DNA from: Actinomycetospora straminea
GTDB taxonomy: Bacteria > Actinomycetota > Actinomycetes > Mycobacteriales > Pseudonocardiaceae
Assembly (NCBI RefSeq): GCF_028737255.1
Contig: NZ_JAQZAN010000004.1
Coordinates: forward strand, 248,001 to 312,000
Length of the DNA: 64,000 nucleotides
Direction of reading: 5' to 3'
Shown: positions 8,008 through 61,256 of the stretch, piece by piece
Numbering within the stretch: the first letter of the stretch is position 1
Layout of the letters: every line of letters begins with the position of its first letter
Translations under genes and position numbers: made by a program
The notes under the pieces: generated by a model
Databases searched by the model: none
What the model saw: the letters and a program-made list of their open reading frames with translations, nothing else
What the model was told of the DNA's origin: nothing

Positions 8008-9523
8008 CCCGCGCGGGTTCCTCAAGTACGAGCGGCAGGACAACCCCAAGCGACCGGTCGGGCAGCGCCGCACCGACTGGCACGAGCTCTACGCCTCGCT
8101 GACCGACCCGGAGGTCAAGGAGGGCACGCAGACCCAGGCCGCGCGCTGCATGGACTGCGGCATCCCGTTCTGCCACTCCGGCGGCGCGGGCTGCCCGCTC
8201 GGCAACCTCATCCCGGAGTGGAACGACCACGTCCGGCGCGGGGAGTGGGCGCGCGCCACCGAGCGGCTGCACGCGACCAACAACTTCCCGGAGTTCACCG
8301 GCGCCCTGTGCCCGGCGCCGTGCGAGGCGGCGTGCGTGCTGTCGATCACGAGCCAGCCGGGCGCCGTGGCGATCAAGCGGGTCGAGTGGTCGATCGCCGA
8401 GAACGGTTGGGTCGACGGGCACGTCACGCCGCAGCCGCCCGCGATCAGCACCGGCAAGCGGGTCGCCGTCGTGGGCTCGGGACCGGCCGGGCTCGCCGCC
8501 GCCCAGCAGCTCACGCGCGCCGGGCACGACGTCACCGTCTACGAGCGCGACGACCGCCTCGGCGGGCTCATGCGCTACGGCATCCCCGAGTTCAAGTTCG
8601 AGAAGTGGGAGGTCGACCGACGCCTCGACCAGATGCGCGCCGAGGGCACCCGGTTCGTGACGAACTGCGAGGTCGGGGGCGAGGGCCCGGCCGCCCTGCC
8701 CGTCGAGCGGCTGCGCGCCGAGCACGACGCCGTGGTGCTCGCCGTCGGGGCGCTGGCCGGGCGCGACGACCGGACGATCGAGGGCCGCGACCTCGAGGGC
8801 ATCCACCTCGCGATGGAGTACCTGGTGCCCGCCAACCGCGAGCGCGAGGGCGACGGCCCCTCGCCGATCAACGCGCGCGGCCAGAACGTCGTGATCATCG
8901 GTGGCGGCGACACCGGCGCCGACTGCTACGGCACCGCCACCCGGCAGGGCGCGATCGCCGTGCACCAGCTCGACCAGTACCCGCCGCCGCCGCGCACGCG
9001 CCAGGACTCCACCTCGCCGTGGCCGACCTGGCCCTACGTGTTCCGCACCCCGCCGGCCCTCGAGGAGGGCGGCGAGCGCCTGTTCGCGACGGCCGTGCGC
9101 CGCTTCGTGGGCGACGACCGCGGGCACGTGCGGGCGGTCGAGCTGTCGTCGGTGGAGGTCCGCCGGGACGCCGAGGGGCGCCGCGAGGTCGTGCCGACCA
9201 GCGAGGAGGTGCACGAGATGCCGTGCGACCTCGTGCTGTTCTCCATCGGCTTCACCGGCCCCGACGACATGGCGCTCATCCCGGGCCTCGGGATCGAGCG
9301 GACGCCGAAGGGCTCGATCGGCTGCGGTTCGGACTGGCAGACCGACGCGCCCGGCGTGTTCGTCTGCGGCGACGCCCACCGCGGCGCCTCGCTGATCGTC
9401 TGGGCCATCGCCGAGGGCCGGTCCGCCGCCGCCGCGGTCGACCGCTACCTCGACCCCGACGGCGCGACGGACCTCCCCGCCCCCCTGCACCCCAACGCGG
9501 TCCCGCTGAGCCCCGCCGGCTGA
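8000..9523 (+). CDS. gltD: glutamate synthase small subunit
   Basis: GltD takes electrons from NADPH through FAD and two 4Fe-4S clusters and passes them to GltB. The protein has 507 residues. An N-terminal cysteine-rich domain (CMDCGIPFC, then CPAPCEAAC) binds the clusters. [14 protein letters not shown] is the FAD Rossmann motif and [13 protein letters not shown] the NADPH motif; a [14 protein letters not shown] segment near the C-terminus completes the FAD site. The GTG start at 8000 overlaps the last eight bases of gltB. Paired hairpins follow the stop, so gltBD ends here. Confidence 0.97.
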
Positions 9524-9530
9524 GGTGATC

Positions 9531-9580
9531 GCAGCGAACGTGCTGTTCGCTGCCTCTACGCGCGCGAACTCCCCGTTCGC
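9531..9580. terminator. two tandem hairpins sharing the stem core GCGAAC/GTTCGC
   Basis: GCAGCGAAC (9531-9539) pairs perfectly with GTTCGCTGC (9545-9553) around a 5-base loop. Ten bases later GCGAAC (9564-9569) pairs with GTTCGC (9575-9580), again around a 5-base loop. They sit between the convergent genes gltD and the NTF2-like gene, so they probably terminate from both sides. The shared stem core suggests that one arose by duplication of the other. Confidence 0.6.
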
Positions 9581-9587
9581 TCGCGGC

Positions 9588-9974
9588 TCAGCCGTCCTGG
9601 ACCGGGGTGATGTGCGTCAGCACGCACCGCCAGCCGTCGGAGCGCCGCACGAACACGTCGGTCGTCCACTCGTCGGCGGGGATGTCCTGCCCGCCGTACT
9701 GCGCGGTGGACAGGACCCGCACGGTCAGCACCGCGGTGTCGCCGTGCACCCGCACCCGCCGCTCGCCGACGCCCTCCATGCGCGTGTGCCCGAGGACGCC
9801 GGAGCGGACGTACGAGAGGAAGTCCGCGCGGGTCGTCACCCCCGACCACGAGACGATGACCCAGTCGTCGTCCATGTACCCGGCGATGCGGTCGGCGTCG
9901 TCGGAGACGATCGCCTCGCTCCAGGCGTCGGCGAGGGCGATCAGCTCCTGCGCGGTCGTGTCCGTCGTCGTCAT
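9588..9974 (-). CDS. NTF2-like / SnoaL-type (DUF4440) protein
   Basis: A 128-residue single-domain protein of the NTF2-like cone fold. It starts MTTTDTTAQELIALADAWSE, the typical long N-terminal helix, followed by IAGYMDDDWVIVSWSG and a C-terminal sheet with DGWRCVLTHITPVQ, a hallmark of the DUF4440/SgcJ group. Members bind small ligands or act as enzymes on varied substrates, so no specific reaction can be assigned. It is convergent with gltD and about 70 bases downstream of the hydrolase gene on the same strand. Confidence 0.8.
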   Translation of the reverse strand: MTTTDTTAQELIALADAWSEAIVSDDADRIAGYMDDDWVIVSWSGVTTRADFLSYVRSGVLGHTRMEGVGERRVRVHGDTAVLTVRVLSTAQYGGQDIPADEWTTDVFVRRSDGWRCVLTHITPVQDG

Positions 9975-10047
9975 GGACCGACGGTAGGACCCGGGGGGAT
10001 CGGGCGTCTTGGACGAACCGGACCCACGCCCGGGCCTACGCCCGAAC

Positions 10048-27763: not shown

Positions 27764-28801
27764 ATGGGTCTTCACAGGGCGAAACTCGGACGTCGGGGGA
27801 TGGTCGCACTCGCGGCCACCGGGGCCCTGATCGTCGGCGGCGGGGCCGCGGCGATGGTCGGCGCGGGCAATGCGGCACCGCTGCCGGAACTGCCCGGGGC
27901 GCCCTCCGTCCCGGGTGTCGGAACGACGTACGTGCTGCCGGACCTGGCGCCGTTCACGCGGACCGCCACGACCGGCACCTCGGAGGTGTCGGAGGAGTTC
28001 GGCGCCCCGATGGGCGGTGGTGAGGCCGCGCTCCGCCTGATCACGCCCGGCGGCAGCGACAAGGCCGCGATCCGGACGACCGAGGACGGGGGCACGCCCC
28101 TCTCGGCGTGGACGGGAGCGGCATACAGCGCTTTCCAGGGCGAGGCGGACGTCGACATCCAGTTCCCGAGCATGCAGCTCGTGGTCGACTTCGCTCCGGA
28201 CGACCCCGCCGTCGGCTTCTCGACGCTCACCTACGAGCCGGCGAACAACCCCGGCGATCCGACGACCGCCGGCGAGTGGCACCGCTACGCGGCCGGAGCA
28301 GGCCTGTGGTGCTCGACGCGGGCGATCCCGGAGGTCATCAGCGAGGAGCAGCGCAACTGCTCCTTCGGCGGAGCGAAGCCCCTGGCCGCGTACTTCACCG
28401 CGCACCCGACCATCCGCGTCGATGCGCTCGTGATCAACCAGGGCAGCGGCAACCCCGGGCTCGACGCCGCGGTCGACCTCGTGACGACGCCGACCACGAC
28501 CTACGACTTCGAGCTCACGGAGCCCGAGCTGCCCGAGGTCCCGGGCACCGACCCGTGCGAGGAGCCGACCGTCCCGGGCCTGCCGGGTGAGGGCGGCGAG
28601 AACGGGGGCAACGAGGGCCACGAGAACGGTGGCCAGGACGAGCCCAAGGGTCACGAGAACGGTCACAACGGCGGCCACGAGAACGGCGGCAACGAGCGCC
28701 ACGAGAACGGTGGCAAGGACGAGCCCGAGGGTCACGAGAACGGCGGCCACGACAACGGCGGCAACGAGGGCCACGAGCCGCCGCAGTGCTCGGGGTCGTG
28801 A
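27764..28801 (+). CDS. secreted protein with GHENGG repeat tail, function unknown
   Basis: I do not recognise this family. The 345-residue protein starts with a basic region (MGLHRAKLGRRG) and a hydrophobic segment ending AGNAAPLP, a plausible Sec signal peptide cleaved near residue 38. The central 230 residues contain three cysteines and no recognised domain. The last roughly 70 residues are low-complexity repeats of the GHENGGNE/GHENGGQDEP type, rich in His, Glu, Asn and Gly, possibly metal-binding or surface-exposed. It stands alone between palindromic repeats and has its own terminator. The upstream region (27640-27720) is AT-richer than usual here. Confidence 0.8.
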   Translation: MGLHRAKLGRRGMVALAATGALIVGGGAAAMVGAGNAAPLPELPGAPSVPGVGTTYVLPDLAPFTRTATTGTSEVSEEFGAPMGGGEAALRLITPGGSDKAAIRTTEDGGTPLSAWTGAAYSAFQGEADVDIQFPSMQLVVDFAPDDPAVGFSTLTYEPANNPGDPTTAGEWHRYAAGAGLWCSTRAIPEVISEEQRNCSFGGAKPLAAYFTAHPTIRVDALVINQGSGNPGLDAAVDLVTTPTTTYDFELTEPELPEVPGTDPCEEPTVPGLPGEGGENGGNEGHENGGQDEPKGHENGHNGGHENGGNERHENGGKDEPEGHENGGHDNGGNEGHEPPQCSGS

Positions 28802-29101: not shown

Positions 29102-30715
29102 CTACTCGCTCGACCGCTTGCGGCCCGGCAGCCGGTCGACGACCCGCCCGAGGCGCTCGGTCGTGCCCTGCAGCGGCGCGAGGGCGTCGGCGAGGACCCC
29201 GATCTGCTGGTCGAGGTTGTCGATGCGCCCGGCGAGGGTGCGCAGGTCCGGGCTGACCTTCTGCAGCTCGCCGGCGGCGGTGGTCAGCGAGGTGTCGAGG
29301 TGCTCGAGGCGCGGCGGCACGTCGGGGAACGTGGTGTCGGCGTGCCGGGCGAGGGTCTCGACGTGCCCGATCGCCCCGGTCAGCTTGCGGATCTCGTCCA
29401 CCGCGCCCGCCATCTGCCCCAGGGCGGGCGCGGCCTCGGCGAGGGCGTGGAGGTCGTCGACGGCCGCGGTGAGCGCGTGGAGGTCGTCGACCGCGCCGGC
29501 CAGCGACGACAGCGTCGGGACCGCCTCGGCCAGGCGCGCGATCGTCGGGACGGCGTCCGCGAGTGCGGCCACGGTGGGGACGGCGTCGGCGAGCCGCCCG
29601 ACCGACGGCACCCCGTGCGCGATCTGCGCGACCGAGCCGGTGGCGCCGGCGAGCGTGCGCAGGTCGCCCGTGGCGCCGGCCAGCGTGCCGAGGTCGTCGA
29701 CCGCCCCGGCGATCTGCTGCAGGGTCGGGACGGCGCCCGCGAGGTCGGCGAGGTGGGGCACGGCGGCGCCGAGCTCCTGGAGGGCCGGCGCCACCTCCGC
29801 GAGGCGGTCGAGCACCGGCGCGGCCTCGCCCAGCTGCTGCAGCGCCGGCACGGCCGAGGCCAGCGCCGCGATGTCCCCGCGCGCCTCGCCGATCTGCTGC
29901 AGAGCTGGCACGGCGAACGCGAGCGCGGCGATGTCCCCGCGGGCGTCGCCGATCTGCTGCAGCGCCGGCACGGCGGAGGCGAGGGTCGCGATGTCCCCGC
30001 GCGCGTCCCCGATCTGCTGCAGCGCCGGCACCGCGGAGGCGAGGGTCGCGATGTCCCCGCGCGCCTCGCCGATCTCCTGCAGCGCCGGCACCGCGGAGGC
30101 CAGGGCGGCGATGTCCCCGCGCGCCTCGCCGATCTGCTGGAGCGCCGGCACGGCCTCGGTCAGCGCGTGGATGTCGGGCGCGGCACCGGCGATCGCCTGC
30201 AGCGCCGGGGCGGCCTCGGCGAGGGCGTGCAGATCGTCGGTGGCCTGGCCCAGGCGGGTGAGCGCTGGCGCGGCGTCGGCGAGCCGGTCCAGCGACGGGA
30301 CCGCGCTCGCGATCCGCTCGAGGGTCGGCACGGCGCGGGCGATCGCGTGCAGGTCGTCGACGGCGCCGGCGAGCCGGTCGAGGGCGTCGGTGGCGTAGGA
30401 CAGCCGGGTGAGGTCGGGGGCGAGCTCGTCGAGGGTGCTGCGCAGGCCCGACGCGACGGGCAGGAGCTGCTCGAGCATCGACACCAGCCGCGGCACGGCG
30501 CGCAGGGCGTCGGCGACGAGCGGGCTGAGGTCGGCGGTGGTCCGGGCGCCGGAGGTGGCGATGTCGGCGATGCCGCGCACGATCGCCGGCCCGTGCAGCG
30601 TCAGCTCGACGGCCGTGCGGGTGGAGGCCACGACGAGGGCGCGGGCCGTGTCGAGGATGCCGCTGGGGGCGGACTCGACGGCGCGCGGCAGTGCCCGGGG
30701 CGCGGGACGGGTCAT
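29102..30715 (-). CDS. repeat protein of about twenty 17–20-residue helical repeats, function unknown
   Basis: I do not recognise the family. The 537-residue protein is almost wholly repetitive from about residue 100 to 480. The central six units are near-identical 20-mers of the form AVPALQQIGEARGDIAALAS; flanking units are shorter and degenerate (AVPTLERIA, AVDDLHALA, AAPALGQMA). Every unit carries Ala/Leu/Ile at helical spacing, so a long helical rod or coiled coil is likely. There is no signal peptide or membrane segment; the C-terminus is basic (GRKRSSE). Its ATG overlaps the stop of the YibE/F membrane protein (ATGA), so the two are co-expressed. Confidence 0.75.
   Translation of the reverse strand: MTRPAPRALPRAVESAPSGILDTARALVVASTRTAVELTLHGPAIVRGIADIATSGARTTADLSPLVADALRAVPRLVSMLEQLLPVASGLRSTLDELAPDLTRLSYATDALDRLAGAVDDLHAIARAVPTLERIASAVPSLDRLADAAPALTRLGQATDDLHALAEAAPALQAIAGAAPDIHALTEAVPALQQIGEARGDIAALASAVPALQEIGEARGDIATLASAVPALQQIGDARGDIATLASAVPALQQIGDARGDIAALAFAVPALQQIGEARGDIAALASAVPALQQLGEAAPVLDRLAEVAPALQELGAAVPHLADLAGAVPTLQQIAGAVDDLGTLAGATGDLRTLAGATGSVAQIAHGVPSVGRLADAVPTVAALADAVPTIARLAEAVPTLSSLAGAVDDLHALTAAVDDLHALAEAAPALGQMAGAVDEIRKLTGAIGHVETLARHADTTFPDVPPRLEHLDTSLTTAAGELQKVSPDLRTLAGRIDNLDQQIGVLADALAPLQGTTERLGRVVDRLPGRKRSSE
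29830..30160 (-). repeat. 60-base tandem repeat inside the repeat-protein gene
   Basis: Five to six copies follow each other with an exact 60-base period. Most neighbours differ at only a few positions, for example in the blocks starting near 29941 and 30001. The DNA is conserved beyond what the protein needs, which indicates recent duplication or gene conversion. Confidence 0.9.
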
Positions 30716-55466: not shown

Positions 55467-57073
55467 CCGGACGTCACGGCGGGCCCGGCCGACCCGGCCG
55501 GCCCGACGGCCGCGCGACCCACCCCGAGCGCCGGCTGGTGCGGATGTCGCCCGCGCCCGCCCGGCCCCGGGTCCGCCGGGTGGCCGGCCATCAGCCGCAC
55601 CCGCAGCAGCATCCCCAGCAGCAGCACCAGCAGCACCCCTCGCCGCGGCCGGGCCTGCACCCCGACGCCGAGACCGACCGGTACGACGCGGCGGACTGGC
55701 GGCGGTCGTTCCCCGGCGACGACGCCGACACCGAGACCACGGCGACGGCGAGCGGCGCCGGCGGTATCGGCATCGGCGGCCCCGACCGTGCCGACCGTGC
55801 GGACCGAGCGGACCGTGCCGACCGGCGCGAGGGCGCCGAGGGCGACGCGGCCGACGCGGGATGGCTCCTGGGCGACGACGAGCCGGAGGACGACGTCGCG
55901 GAGGCGCAGCGCCGGGATCCCGAGACCGAGGCCGTGCCGGAGGACCGCCGCCCGCGGCGCCGGTGGCTGTGGCCGGCGGTGGCCGGGGTCCTCGTGCTCG
56001 CGCTGGTGGGCGGGGTGTTCTTCGCCCGCGACCTGCTGCCGCTGCTCTTCCCGCCCGACTACGAGGGGCCGGGGACGGGCCGGGTCGTCGTCGAGGTCGC
56101 CGACGGGTCGTCCACCCGCGCGATCGGTGAGGAGCTCGTCAGCGCGGGGGTGGTCGCGTCGTCGCGGGCGTTCGGCGACGCCGCCGAGGAGGACCCGAAC
56201 GGGCGCGGCATCCAGCCCGGCTTCTACGAGCTGCGCCGCCAGATGTCCGCGGCCGGCGCCGTCGACGCCCTGCTCGACCCCGCCAGCCGCGTCGGGCGCC
56301 TGGAGATCCGCAGCGGCACCCAGCTCGACGACACCGTGGGTGCAGGCACCTCGACCGTGCCCGGCGTGCTGTCGGCGATCTCGCGCGCCACGTGCACCGT
56401 CGACGACGCGGGCGCGGAGCGGTGCGCGAGCGTCGACGACCTGCGCGCGGCGATGGCCGAGACCGACCCCGCCGAGCTCGGGGTGCCGACCTGGGCGCTC
56501 GAGGGCGTGCGGCGCGCCGAGCCGACCCGGCGCCTCGAGGGCCTGCTCGCCCCGGGCACCTACGACATCGCGCCGGGCACCGGGGCGCGCGAGGCGCTCA
56601 CCGCCGTCGTGCAGGCATCCGCGCCGCGATTGGAGGCCGGCGGGCTGGTGGCGGACGCCGAGGCCGCGGGGGTGACCCCGTACGACGCGCTGATCGTCGC
56701 GTCGCTGGCCGAGCGCGAGGGTGTGCCCGCCGATTTCGCTAAGGTCACGCGGGTCATCGTCAACCGGCTCGCGGTGCCGATGCGCCTCCAGTTCGACTCG
56801 ACGGTGAACTACCCGCTCGACCGTCAGACCCTCCTGACCAGCCCGTACGACCGCGCCCGCCCCGGCCCGTACAACACGTACCTCAACCTCGGGTTGACCC
56901 CGACCCCCATCGGCGCGGTCAGCCCCGAGGCGCTGCGGGCGGCCCTGGCACCGACGCCGGGGCCGTGGGTGTACTTCGTGAAGTGCCAGACCGACGGCAT
57001 CTCGTGCTTCGCCGTCACGCCCGAGGAGCACGACGCCAACCGGCGCCTGGCCCAGGCACGCGGGGTCTACTAG
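55463..57073 (+). CDS. mltG: endolytic transglycosylase MltG
   Basis: MltG cuts nascent glycan strands at the outer face of the membrane. The 536-residue protein has a long cytoplasmic N-terminus (about 170 residues) with low-complexity HPQQ repeats and RADRADRAD tandem triplets, one membrane segment at about residues 172–192 (LWPAVAGVLVLALVGGVFFA), then the YceG domain: a LysM-like part, RRLEGLLAPGTYDI, YDALIVASLAEREGV with the catalytic Glu, and FDSTVNYPL with SPYDRARPGPYNTYLNLGLTPTPI. It overlaps ruvX by four bases, and aroE follows at once. Confidence 0.94.
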   Translation: MTGRHGGPGRPGRPDGRATHPERRLVRMSPAPARPRVRRVAGHQPHPQQHPQQQHQQHPSPRPGLHPDAETDRYDAADWRRSFPGDDADTETTATASGAGGIGIGGPDRADRADRADRADRREGAEGDAADAGWLLGDDEPEDDVAEAQRRDPETEAVPEDRRPRRRWLWPAVAGVLVLALVGGVFFARDLLPLLFPPDYEGPGTGRVVVEVADGSSTRAIGEELVSAGVVASSRAFGDAAEEDPNGRGIQPGFYELRRQMSAAGAVDALLDPASRVGRLEIRSGTQLDDTVGAGTSTVPGVLSAISRATCTVDDAGAERCASVDDLRAAMAETDPAELGVPTWALEGVRRAEPTRRLEGLLAPGTYDIAPGTGAREALTAVVQASAPRLEAGGLVADAEAAGVTPYDALIVASLAEREGVPADFAKVTRVIVNRLAVPMRLQFDSTVNYPLDRQTLLTSPYDRARPGPYNTYLNLGLTPTPIGAVSPEALRAALAPTPGPWVYFVKCQTDGISCFAVTPEEHDANRRLAQARGVY

Positions 57074-57940
57074 GTGCGCGCGGCGGTCCTCGGCTCGCCG
57101 GTGGCCCACTCGCGCTCGCCGGTGCTGCACCGCGCGGCGTACGCGGCGCTCGGGCTCGACGGCTGGACCTACGAGGCGATCGAGTGCACCGCCGAGGACC
57201 TGCCGGCCTTCGTGCGCGGGCTCGACGCGTCGTGGGCGGGGCTGTCGGTGACGATGCCGGGCAAGCGGGCGGCGCTGGAGACGGCGACCGTCGTCTCGGC
57301 GCGCGCGTCGCGCGTCGGGGTCGCGAACACGCTCGTGCGCCGCGAGGGCGGCTGGGCGGCGGACTGCACCGACGTCGACGGCGTCGCCGGCGCCCTGCGC
57401 GCCGCCGGGGTGCGCCCGGTCCCGTCGATCGCCGCGGGGACGGCCGACGTCGTGGTGCTGGGCAGCGGGGCGACGGCGTCGGCGGCGCTGGGCGGCGTCT
57501 ACGAGGTGGGCTCGGAGGCGGTCACGCTCGTCGTGCGCGACGAGGTCCGGGCCGCCGGGACGTTGGAGGTGGCCCGCGCGCACGGGTTCATGCGCCGCGC
57601 GGTGACGTGGCCCGACCTCGAGCCCGCCGACCTGTCGCGGGCCAAGGCGCTGGTCAACACCACGCCCGCCGGGAGCATCGACGCCGACCTCGCGACCTGG
57701 ATCGTGGCGGCGCTCCCGGAGTGGGCGGTGGTCCTCGACGCGGTCTACCACCCCTGGCCCACGCCCCTGGCCGCCGCGGCCGCCGTGCGCGGCCTGTCGG
57801 TGGCCACGGGCCTGGACATGCTGTTGCACCAGGCCTTCGGGCAGGTCGAGCAGTTCACCGGCCTCCCGGCGCCGCGGGAGGCGATGCACGAGGCCCTCGG
57901 CGCGACGGCGGACCTGGCGCTGCTGCCGCTACCGGCCTGA
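57074..57940 (+). CDS. aroE: shikimate dehydrogenase
   Basis: AroE reduces 3-dehydroshikimate to shikimate with NADPH. The protein has 288 residues. LGSPVAHSRSPVLHRAA contains the shikimate-binding SxS, SVTMPGKRAAL the catalytic Lys, VVVLGSGATASAALGG the nucleotide-binding loop and LVNTTPAG a conserved hinge; GLDMLLHQAFGQVEQFTG closes the site. The GTG start directly follows the mltG stop. The nucleotide loop is GSGATA rather than GAGGA, common in actinobacterial AroE. Three other shikimate-pathway genes lie 2 kb downstream. Confidence 0.93.
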   Translation: MRAAVLGSPVAHSRSPVLHRAAYAALGLDGWTYEAIECTAEDLPAFVRGLDASWAGLSVTMPGKRAALETATVVSARASRVGVANTLVRREGGWAADCTDVDGVAGALRAAGVRPVPSIAAGTADVVVLGSGATASAALGGVYEVGSEAVTLVVRDEVRAAGTLEVARAHGFMRRAVTWPDLEPADLSRAKALVNTTPAGSIDADLATWIVAALPEWAVVLDAVYHPWPTPLAAAAAVRGLSVATGLDMLLHQAFGQVEQFTGLPAPREAMHEALGATADLALLPLPA

Positions 57941-57980
57941 GGGGCGAGGTCGGGGAGCTGCCCCGGTGCGGGCTGCCGGC

Positions 57981-58320
57981 GACCTATGCCCGTGATCGCG
58001 TCGAGATCGACGCACGCGGACGTGCTGGGCCGATGCCTCGGGGCGGGTGCCGGTGTATTCGTCGGGGACCTATGCCCATGATCGCGTCGAGACGGACACG
58101 CCGCGACCCGCGTCGGCGTCTGCCCGTCGTCCATGACCTGAGCCGGTGATCGCGGCGAGATCGACGAGCGAGGACGGTGCCGGTGTCTCCGCTCCGCGCG
58201 GGACCTATACCCATGATCTCGTCGAGACCGACGAACGCGGACGACGCCGGACCGACGCTCGGCAGGCGGTGCCGGTGTCGCCGCGCGGGACCTCTGTCCA
58301 TGATCTCGTCGAGACCGACG
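57981..58320 (-). repeat. array A: five degenerate copies of a 31-base core
   Basis: Plus-strand copies read GACCTATGCCCATGATC then a C/T-variable CGTCGAGA and a CGACG end. They start at about 57981, 58067, 58136 (degenerate), 58202 and 58289, spaced about 67–87 bases, with GGTGCCGGTGT-type bases recurring before several copies. Read on the minus strand the core matches that of array B. Indels between copies are not multiples of three and no open frame is supported. Confidence 0.85.
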
Positions 58321-58340
58321 GCCGAGCGCGCAGCCGCGAG

Positions 58341-58670
58341 CCGGTGCCGGCTCGTGCTCGCCGCTGACGAGGTCCCTCTCGACCGCCGGCGTCGTCCGCG
58401 CCGGTCCCGCGTGACGCCCCGCGTGCCGGTCGCGAGCGCTGGACTTAAGGCACGAGCCGCTGCGGGTGCCGACCCCCTCCGACCGCTCGCCCCGCTGCGC
58501 AGCTCGCGATGCCAGTCGCTGGCGCCGACCTGCTCGTCGTCGTGGGGCGACCCTTCACCGGGGGCGTGGGGCTCGCCGCCGCCCCCGCGGTCGTCGTCGC
58601 TCCCGCCGCGATCACGCTCGTCGGTCGTTTGCGACGGCACGAGGAATTGCCTGGCACAGCGGATCACCTC
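58341..58670. other. non-repetitive centre between the two arrays, no supported gene
   Basis: This stretch separates the oppositely oriented arrays. A 38-codon segment from ATG 58509 has GC-rich third positions and a hydrophobic pattern (MPVAGADLLVVVGRPFTGG), but it runs into array B with no conserved domain. It may be a decayed gene or nothing; no tRNA or known RNA was recognised. Confidence 0.4.
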
Positions 58671-58674
58671 GACG

Positions 58675-59280
58675 TCGGTCTCGATGCGATCTTGGGTTGG
58701 CTCGTCCTGGTCGGGTTCCGGAGCACGCAGCGATCGGGAGGTCGAGAACCTCCGCCCGTCGGAGCGACCCGAGCCTGCGCTTGTTCAGTGCTGGCGGACG
58801 AGGCCGCTCACGGTCGGCCGTTCCGTCGGCGAGGCTCGACGTCGTTCTCGGTGCGATCTTGGGCGTAGCTCGTCCGGGGTCGGTCCCGGAGCCCATGCGG
58901 ATCGGGGAGGCCGAGAACGCCCGTCGGAGCGACTCGAGCTGGCGCCGGTCAGTGCTGGCGGACGAGGCCGCTCACGGTCGGCCGTCTCGTCGGCGACGCT
59001 CGGCGTCGTTCTCGATGCGATCTTGAGCATAGCTCGTCTGTGGTCGGTCCCGGACCCACGCGCGGGTAGGCAGGTCGAGAACCTCCGCCCGTCGGAGCGA
59101 CCCGAGCCGGCGCCGGTTCAGTGCTGACGGCGGACGAGGCCGCTCACGGTCGGCCGTTCCGTCGGCGACGCTCGGCGTCGTTCTCGATGCGATCTTGAGC
59201 ATAGCTCGTCCGAGGTCGGTCCGGGACCCACGCAGGGGTCGTGAGGTCGAGAACGCCCGCCGGCCGGCGCGACCCGCGAG
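58675..59280 (+). repeat. array B: four 164–172-base tandem units with the same core
   Basis: TCTCGATGCGATCTTG-type cores start at 58679, 58846 (Gly-coding variant TCTCGGTG), 59010 and 59182. Each is followed by GGTCGGTCCCGG, a GGTCGAGAAC-CTCCG-CCCGT-CGGAG-CGACC segment able to fold into a hairpin, CGCCGGTTCAGTGCTG and GACGAGGCCGCTCACGG. The last unit is cut short after the GGTCGAGAACGCCCG block. Period lengths of 167, 164 and 172 rule out a conserved protein. Confidence 0.88.
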
Positions 59281-59413
59281 GGATCGGGACGGCGGGCCAA
59301 GCGCGCCGGAGCACCGCACGGGTGCGAAGCGCAGTTCCCATCCACCGGATGCGTCCACAGGCGAACGGAGCAGCGCGTGACCGCGCGGACGGGTCGCGCG
59401 CAGGCTCGGATCC

Positions 59414-60037
59414 ATGACGACAGTGCTGGTGGCCGCGGTCGGCGGCGGTGGGGCGGGAGCCCTGGGCGGCGTCGGGGTCCGGGCGGCGCTGGCGGGGATG
59501 CGGCGTGGCGCGCTGGTCGCGTGGTGGCGGTGCAGCGGGGCGCTCGCGGCGCTGTGGGCGGTGGCGGCCGCCCTCGTCGGGGCCGGGGCCGTCCCCGCCG
59601 CGTGGCTCCCGTCCTGGCTGGTGCTCGGCGCGCTGGCGGTGGCCGGGAGCGCGGTCGACCTCGCCGCGCACCGCCTGCCCGACGTCCTCACTGGGCCCGC
59701 CGCCGGCGTCTCGCTCCTCGGCCTGCTCCCGCTCGGACCCGCGTCGACGGCGACGGGCGCGGCCGGCGCGCTCCTGCTCGGCGGGGCCTTCGCGGCCGTG
59801 CACCTCGCCGTCCCGGGCGCTCTCGGCGCCGGTGACGTCAAGCTCGCCCCGGCGCTCGGCGCGCCCCTCGCGGCGGCGTCGCCGACGGCCCCGGTGGTCG
59901 CGGTCGTGCTGGCCGCGGTGGGGGTCCTGGTCCTGGCGTCGGCACGCCGCGCGCACCGCGTCCCGTTCGGTCCTCCGCTGCTGCTCGCGGCCTGGGTCGT
60001 GCTCACCGTGAGCCTGACCGCCGGGTGGACACCGTGA
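59414..60037 (+). CDS. A24 family prepilin peptidase, minimal form
   Basis: A 207-residue membrane aspartyl protease with about six membrane segments. [12 protein letters not shown] carries the first catalytic aspartate and [12 protein letters not shown] the GxGDxKL motif with the second. The N-terminal methyltransferase domain of full PilD enzymes is absent, as in the Rv2551c homologue that holds the same place between aroE and aroC. Its partner pilins (Flp/Tad-type) are not in this window. ATG 59414 has no strong ribosome site. Confidence 0.88.
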
Positions 60038-60063
60038 TCGCGGCGTCGTGGAACGATGGGCCC

Positions 60064-61256
60064 GTGTTGCGGTGGTTGACGGCAGGCGAGTCGCACGGGG
60101 CGGCGCTCACGGCGGTGCTCGAGGGCATGGTCGCGGGCGTGTCGGTGAGCTCGAAGGAGGTGTCGGCGGAGCTCGCGCGGCGGCGCCTGGGCTACGGGCG
60201 CGGCGCGCGGATGGCGTTCGAGGCCGACGAGATCGAGATCTCCGGCGGCCTGCGCCACGGTGTGACGCTCGGCAGCCCGGTGGCGATCCGGATCGCGAAC
60301 TCCGAGTGGCCCAAGTGGGAGACGGTCATGTCGGCCGACCCCGTCGACCCCGGTCTGATCGAGGGGCGCGCCCGCAACGCGCCGCTGACCCGTCCTCGCC
60401 CGGGACACGCCGACCTCGCCGGCATGACCAAGTTCGCCTTCGACGAGGCCCGCCCGGTGCTCGAGCGCGCCAGCGCCCGCGAGACGGCGGCCAAGGTCGC
60501 GCTCGGTGCGGTCGCCAAGGCGTTCCTCGCCCAGGCGCTCGGGGTCGAGGTGCTCTCGCACGTGGTCAGCCTCGGCACCGCCGACGCGACGCCCGGCGCG
60601 ATCCCGCTGCCGGGCGACGGCGAGCGCATCGACGCCTCGCCGGTGCGCGCGGTCGACGAGGCCTCGACCGCGGCGATGGTGGCGGAGGTCGACGCCGCCA
60701 AGGAGGACGGCGACACCCTGGGCGGCGTGGTCGAGGTCGTCGCCCACGGCCTGCCTGTGGGGCTCGGCTCCTACGTCCAGGCCGACCGGCGCCTCGACGC
60801 CCGCCTGGCCGGCGCCCTCATGGGCATCCAGGCGATGAAGGGCGTCGAGATCGGCGACGGGTTCACCACCGCCCGCCGCCGGGGCTCGCAGGCCCACGAC
60901 GAGATGCACCTCGCCGCGCCCGGCATCAGCCGCGCCTCCAACCGCGCCGGCGGCATCGAGGGCGGCATGACCAACGGCGAGCCGCTGCGCGCCCGCGTGG
61001 CCATGAAGCCGATCTCGACCGTGCCCCGCGCGCTGGCCACGGTCGACACCGCCACCGGCGAGGCCGCCACCGCCCACCACCAGCGTTCCGACGTGTGCGC
61101 GGTGCCCGCGGCCGGGGTCGTCGCCGAGGCCCTGGTCGCGCTCGTGCTCGCCGACGCCGCCCTGGAGAAGTTCGGCGGCGACTCGCTGCGCGAGACCACC
61201 CGGAACCTCGAGGCCTACCGAGGCGCCATCGACCCGCACCTGCTGCGGAGCGAGCC

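Follow-up and report, generated by a model that had tools for sequence, protein, structure and literature searches.

Among bacterial interspersed repeats, those whose hairpin-forming units are copied by a RAYT transposase are the best understood. Two further classes are MITEs, which have inverted terminal sequences around a short interior and carry no gene, and the MIRU-type repeats of mycobacteria, which are intergenic tandem units arranged head-to-tail. REPINs, also called REP doublets, are described in the available portions of two sources as short inverted paired units with diverse spacers that are intergenic, avoid divergent genes and are long kept (PMC3733652, PMC8049555). BIMEs, in the available portion of a third, are repeats in alternating orientation (PMC2817692). 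The consulted parts of PMC3733652 also describe REPs tagged with CGTC, whose units occur mostly in inverted dimers and have a stem of 8-9 bp, and report no known dedicated transposase for these or for untagged REP-like families such as those in M. tuberculosis. The words actinobacteria and actinomycet are absent from the main text of that article.

We analyzed a 64-kb stretch of DNA from Actinomycetospora straminea (referred to as the window), in which the aroE and prepilin peptidase genes are separated by a 1,473-bp spacer (57941-59413). A 31-bp core is present in the spacer ten times, five times in minus and five times in plus orientation, with every copy facing outward (Table 1). The core has the consensus GTCGNTCTCGACGCGATC(T/A)TGNGC(A/C)TA(G/C/T)GTC, with boundaries that are sharp at both ends across 87 copies. 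A preliminary description of this DNA had reported nine core copies in two opposite arrays around a 330-base centre. The two arrays are real and point away from the centre as described, with minus copies to the left and plus copies to the right. The five minus copies of array A (57981-58319, period 67-87 bp) were recovered, as were the four main plus copies of array B, given as units of 164–172 bases and found with start-to-start spacings of 167, 164 and 172. A tenth, degenerate copy (B0) had been overlooked; because it adds a fifth plus copy, the arrays number five and five and the centre shrinks to ~276 bp. The agreement of ~26 of 31 bases quoted between the cores of the two arrays was too high, as ungapped comparison gave 18-25 of 31 in a matrix from which the B0 values were left out. 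The stretch is gene-free, as claimed for its 1.47 kb, in that a GC3-based ORF caller called no gene in it; mechanical ORFs of up to 316 aa are present.

Table 1. Features of the aroE–prepilin peptidase spacer and its two neighbouring genes (positions in the window).
Feature	Position	Strand	Remarks
aroE (shikimate dehydrogenase), upstream neighbour	57074..57940	+	Pfam Shikimate_dh_N, SDH_C; stop at 57940
Array A arm A1 (31-bp core)	57981..58011	-	
Array A arm A2	58067..58097	-	
Array A arm A3, divergent copy	58135..58165	-	21.2 bits with model R1
Array A arm A4	58202..58232	-	
Array A arm A5	58289..58319	-	
Centre between arrays A and B, 276 bp	58320..58595	.	Interval from A5 to the tenth copy
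B0, tenth copy, degenerate	58596..58626	+	14.6 bits, E 0.0018 over 57 kb searched; matches the consensus at 22/31 positions or more; forms inverted pair I1 with the region of A3
Array B arm B1, degenerate in its 3´ part	58674..58704	+	26.4 bits
Array B arm B2	58841..58871	+	
Array B arm B3	59005..59035	+	
Array B arm B4	59177..59207	+	
Array B tandem repeat, period 172, 3.6 copies	58668..59276	+	Tandem Repeats Finder, 84% matches
CCGGATGCGTCCACAGG-like stretch before the prepilin peptidase gene, similar to the corresponding position in relatives; marks roughly where the extra DNA ends on the right	59333..59413	+	By eye
Prepilin peptidase (Peptidase_A24), downstream neighbour	59414..60037	+	Pfam PF01478

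When up to two mismatches were allowed, a 16-base pattern from the core matched the window eight times, always in the spacer, compared with a mean of 0.16 across 100 shuffles. Sites matching the consensus at 22 or more of 31 positions numbered 10 in the spacer and 0 in the remaining window, and lowering the threshold to 20 of 31 gave 10 and 4, respectively. The window also has a 60-bp tandem repeat (29818-30208, 6.5 copies) and an 81-bp tandem repeat (28594-28778, 2.3 copies), both probably coding because their periods are multiples of three.

Recurrence of the core elsewhere in the genome, which the preliminary description had proposed to check, was detected. With up to three mismatches allowed, a 26-base pattern from the core occurred at 40 places in the A. 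straminea genome (G000, whose contig C44 carries the window; other G-numbers denote the genomes compared with it, and L-numbers denote loci), while the reversed control gave 0. With a profile built on sequence only, we found 53 matches (E<=0.01) in ten loci of this genome, all intergenic. Among 18 genomes of the genus, strong matches (best E<1e-5) were present in six, namely G000, G004, G005, G007, G008 and G010, with 5 to 53 matches in each carrier; five of the remaining 12 had only matches with E of 1.2e-3 or worse and seven had none. No clear carrier was found outside the genus among 150 genomes of the family searched with model R1 (best E 1.4e-3 or worse, under stricter filters that lose weak matches). 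The same filters applied to 298 genomes of the order gave, besides the A. straminea genome, one single partial match in a member of another family (G185, E 3.6e-5), which we took to be chance. In the genome collection, an exact pattern occurred in one stretch (L038), which belongs to an uncultured Actinomycetospora, and one exact pattern occurred in 0 stretches of IMG/VR; the spacer had no match among 72,556 plasmid and 50,697 phage records. A search of both strands of window positions 56500-60500 against Rfam returned nothing above cutoff, the sole listed match being a CRISPR repeat model that scored 22.6 bits (cutoff 42). The 31-bp family was likewise not found in print among the titles of the matches listed for Actinomycetospora or Pseudonocardia repeats, for REPIN/RAYT or for palindromic intergenic repeats in Actinobacteria, and a literature search with the core letters themselves gave nothing. 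The best reading of these searches is a repeat family restricted to the genus Actinomycetospora and present in some of its species only.

The basic form of the repeat is a minus copy, a spacer and a plus copy. In the most compact version, seen in G010 and at two A. straminea loci, 26-bp arms surround a spacer of 11 bp, and such compact pairs are imperfect palindromes. We examined 50 clusters, of which 17 had copies in one orientation only and 33 had both. The minus copy came first and the plus copy last in 32 of these 33, the lone exception (L042) having a weak minus copy in front, and all of the two-arm clusters with both orientations were minus-plus (23/23). The spacers of adjacent pairs ranged from 11 to 531 bp. 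Grown forms in the A. straminea genome include 3+3 arms at the TauE locus and 4+7 arms at the arabinosyltransferase locus. At the his locus (L032 8990-10187), the arms are mostly in alternating minus-plus pairs, not in two blocks, an order suggesting that whole pairs were duplicated in tandem. The array units are poorly conserved between loci. We also considered by eye whether arms are paired in a nested fashion; such pairing seems to suit the 2+2 cluster L047 of G005, but neither L056 nor the window. The window speaks against strict nesting because A3 and B0 share letters, which nesting does not predict.

Several loci are occupied at orthologous positions in more than one genome. The TauE locus is orthologous in five genomes, the holB and phenylacetate/GNAT loci in three each (the latter split over two contig ends in G005), and the his, ADH and aroE-prepilin peptidase loci in two, with a few further orthologous pairs among G004, G005, G007 and G010. 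Same-side arms agreed at 20.95 of 26 positions between orthologous loci and at 20.11 of 26 between others (p=0.002; 34 and 358 comparisons, which are non-independent, drawn from 16 locus-genome entries in six locus sets). The same-side arms of orthologues are more alike, and we therefore conclude that they descended vertically. In six chosen comparisons of orthologous spacers, 299 of 356 arm positions (84%) were identical compared with 371 of 660 (56%) in the rest of the spacer, though the 84% is inflated since the arms were picked by similarity to the consensus. Arm identities for individual pairs of genomes, inflated by the same selection on similarity, were 79-87% for G000-G008, 81-82% for holB pairs with G005 and 92% for G004-G007. 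At fourfold sites of the neighbouring genes, G000 and G008 were 77-84% identical, and pairs of more distant genomes 62-67%. The case for selection on the arms thus rests on the more distant pairs, because the G000-G008 fourfold sites are already 77-84% identical.

The presence of the family in the genus is patchy. The nearest relative by prepilin peptidase identity (81%) is G008, which has strong matches at only three loci, all orthologous to A. straminea loci, so that most A. straminea loci seem to be empty in this genome; the one spacer inspected directly was that behind aroE. Conservation of the arrays in relatives, a point raised in the preliminary description, was found in part: the full array is absent from G008, where the aroE spacer is ~220 bp and has no arms, and a minus-plus pair with one weak arm is present at the same place in G007. 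In an AroC tree of 16 of the 18 genomes (G004 and G013, which had no prepilin peptidase match, were left out), the five placed carriers fall in one nine-genome clade beside four non-carriers. The carrier label changes 4 times on this tree and 220 of 500 shuffles were as low, giving no clustering beyond shuffles. Absence through loss, or through failure to gain, is common. In G010, up to ~240 bp of DNA is shared between some of the copies at unrelated loci, and at one of these loci the site in G011 is near-empty (see below), which fits dispersal or a deletion in G011.

We read the window as one locus of a genus-restricted, REPIN/BIME-like family of intergenic repeats, consisting of outward-facing inverted pairs of 31-bp arms that are putatively read by a protein as linear sequence, rarely copied and locally amplified by tandem duplication, and put the probability of this reading at roughly 60%. 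A putative protein would recognise each arm as linear DNA sequence and not as a hairpin. An enzyme other than a RAYT would infrequently have placed copies of the pairs between further genes, after which each side would have grown locally by tandem duplication, pushing the halves apart to give the 5+5 array. The family may also have a role in the host. Of the options in the preliminary description, a REP/MITE-like family is the one that holds up, given a dispersed, intergenic core in inverted pairs that is present in part of one genus; a protein-binding array, also suggested there, may apply as a function. A REP driven by a RAYT was not recovered, as PF01797 (Y1 transposase) was detected in none of the 18 genus genomes, three of which are <85% complete, while the control was positive in 5 of 14 named genomes.

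The main rival is a border function for the host, in which a sequence-specific DNA-binding protein would recognise the arms and so mark the edges of genes; the arms might be roadblocks to transcription, supercoil or gyrase sites, or sites bound by a nucleoid protein. With the outward orientation, polymerase arriving from either side would meet an arm in the same polarity, and extra copies would strengthen the border. Linear conservation without covariation, the outward order in 32 of 33 two-orientation clusters and the retention of arms at orthologous sites are all consistent with such a function. The gene context is as well. For clusters with both neighbours within 400 bp (31/50), 12 contexts were convergent, 17 codirectional and 2 divergent, compared with 42, 124 and 57, respectively, in the background (convergent versus divergent p=0.0016, with orthologous loci included and hence not fully independent). 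However, the distance of the outer arm from 3´ ends (median 54 bp, n=41) was only slightly different from its distance from 5´ ends (75 bp, n=21), and two loci do lie between divergent genes. The apparent emptiness of most A. straminea loci in G008 and the lack of strong matches in four members of the nine-genome AroC clade also count against a border, and no candidate enzyme or binding protein for the arms was found in this analysis. We hold the border function as a tentative alternative; it overlaps with the copied-pair reading that we prefer, and both could hold together. A more specific proposal is that of a RAYT-free, REPIN-like system, in which a genus-specific, putative DNA-binding or mobilising protein would read the linear 31-bp arm in outward pairs at gene borders and copy or maintain these pairs, which in A. 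straminea would have been opened into arrays (for example 5+5) by repeated duplication on both sides. We regard this proposal as doubtful.

The arms could instead be the terminal inverted repeats of a cut-and-paste transposon, making the pair a MITE whose autonomous copy is lost or unseen. The sharp 31-bp boundaries of the 87 copies and the inverted pair with its variable interior are in line with this, as is a near-empty site at which, judged by eye, convergent stop codons overlap in G011 (a genome without strong matches) while G010 has ~300 bp with a compact pair. This site fits dispersal, or equally deletion in G011, and no clear target-site duplication was seen there, only ~6 bp of imperfect shared sequence. 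The interiors of the A. straminea loci show weak mutual similarity, with pieces of up to 163 bp at ~70%, and all 53 matches of this genome lie within the ten loci. No transposase was present among 24 flanking or nearby genes scanned for families (4/24 without a family), which are mostly ordinary metabolic, replication or envelope genes. Given these observations, a MITE appears unlikely.

It is also improbable, to a somewhat greater degree, that the minus-plus pair acts as an RNA hairpin, either as a bidirectional terminator or as a stabiliser of mRNA 3´ ends. The imperfect palindromes of the compact pairs and the excess of convergent over divergent contexts would suit a hairpin, and parts of the arrays are more stably folded than their shuffled versions; z-scores for nine stretches at the locus ran from -2.35 to +0.72, with two at -2.35 and -2.25. 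In addition, a 10-pair structure drawn within the arm was paired in 83.1% of cells, and slid versions of it in 24-41%, though a structure taken from the consensus is favoured in such a comparison. The best stem drawn in the arm is 5 bp. Between array B units B2 and B4, one two-sided change preserves a possible short within-unit stem. However, the covariation that the preliminary description had proposed to look for did not exceed shuffles. For adjacent minus-plus pairs (<=7 mismatches, <700 bp apart), the two arms matched at 20.32 positions compared with 20.32 for shuffled partners (40 pairs, p=0.51), and the 12 compact pairs matched less than their shuffled partners (20.17 versus 20.99). No covariation was detected inside the arm either, with 83.1% of cells paired compared with 83.3% in shuffles, and RNAalifold found no common structure in the arm; the arm alignment (A1) comprises 84 copies out of 87, the three L042 copies being left out. 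The wide range of adjacent-pair spacers (11 to 531 bp) is a further point against a hairpin. No T-tailed terminator was found in a scan of the locus (0.2 expected), and a promoter scan gave none where none was expected either; these scans say little because almost nothing was expected. The hairpin is not supported by covariation, and there is no clear sign that the arms are kept as one.

Two other suggestions of the preliminary description fare worse. Tandem small-RNA genes are very improbable. The array B units (164-172 bp) are long enough and one of them folds at z -2.35, but Rfam gave no match above cutoff, one stretch of array A was folded no more stably than its shuffled versions whichever strand was taken, the units are poorly conserved between loci, and fold z-scores of -2.35 to +0.72 came with no covariation. 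A parS- or origin-like site for chromosome organisation, which would be in keeping with a long site repeated several times between genes, is hardly credible given the patchy presence in the genus and the positions of the orthologues of eight loci, which in the one-contig genome G003 are spread over 1.05-2.75 and 4.69-4.94 Mb, not one cluster (relative to the coordinates of G003, not its origin).

Some of the arrays have other palindromic repeats within them or next to them, with no fixed mosaic order established. The 23-bp palindrome GCAGCGAANGCGNCNTTCGCTGC, allowing up to three mismatches, had 283 matches on both strands of the A. straminea genome (sites possibly double-counted; control 3); across the 18 genomes of the genus, 11 had 23-283 matches and the remaining seven had 1-3. 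Examples are found at L031 ~9500-9980 and in the centre of L056, and a similar sequence was seen by eye in the centre of two arm arrays. In other species, the aroE-prepilin peptidase spacers (L080-L083, L085 and L086) carry, by eye, different palindromic repeats of the type CTGACGTCNGACGTCAG or CTGGCGTCTGACGCCAGGATCGCCAC, as if this spacer were a repeat hot spot. The compact elements of G010 are several times followed by a second, GACGGAAACGCTTCGGGAACCGAAGCATCC-like repeat (right flanks of L040, L041, L043, L062 and L063).

The strict pair geometry, the orthologous retention and the local amplification, combined with neither a detected RAYT nor a covarying hairpin, would suggest that sequence populations of this sort can be maintained by another protein. 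The 31-bp arm provides a defined bait for finding such a protein, with related genomes with and without the family on hand. As far as the available portions of the REPIN accounts go, the Actinomycetospora units resemble REPINs in being paired and inverted with diverse spacers, in lying between genes with few divergent contexts, and in being retained at orthologous loci. They differ from REPINs in that no RAYT was detected in the 18 Actinomycetospora genomes, in their numbers (5 to 53 matches per carrier genome versus >100), in an arm without a covarying stem-loop, and in the opening of some pairs into arrays, for example 5+5 or 4+7. The CGTC-tagged REPs and the untagged REP-like families are comparable in having no known dedicated transposase, and the arm has a C before GTC in 48 of 87 copies; unlike the CGTC-tagged REPs, by the portion of their description at hand, its best drawn stem falls short of 8-9 bp and does not covary. 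The alternating orientation of the arms near other repeat families recalls BIMEs, a likeness of description, in the part of the source available, and not of sequence. As in a MITE, the pair has inverted ends, a short interior and no gene, but it differs from one in having no clear target duplication at the one near-empty site and no parent element among the 24 genes scanned. Finally, the arrays share with MIRU-type repeats the form of intergenic tandem units in an actinomycete, and are distinguished from them by being two arrays that face outward.
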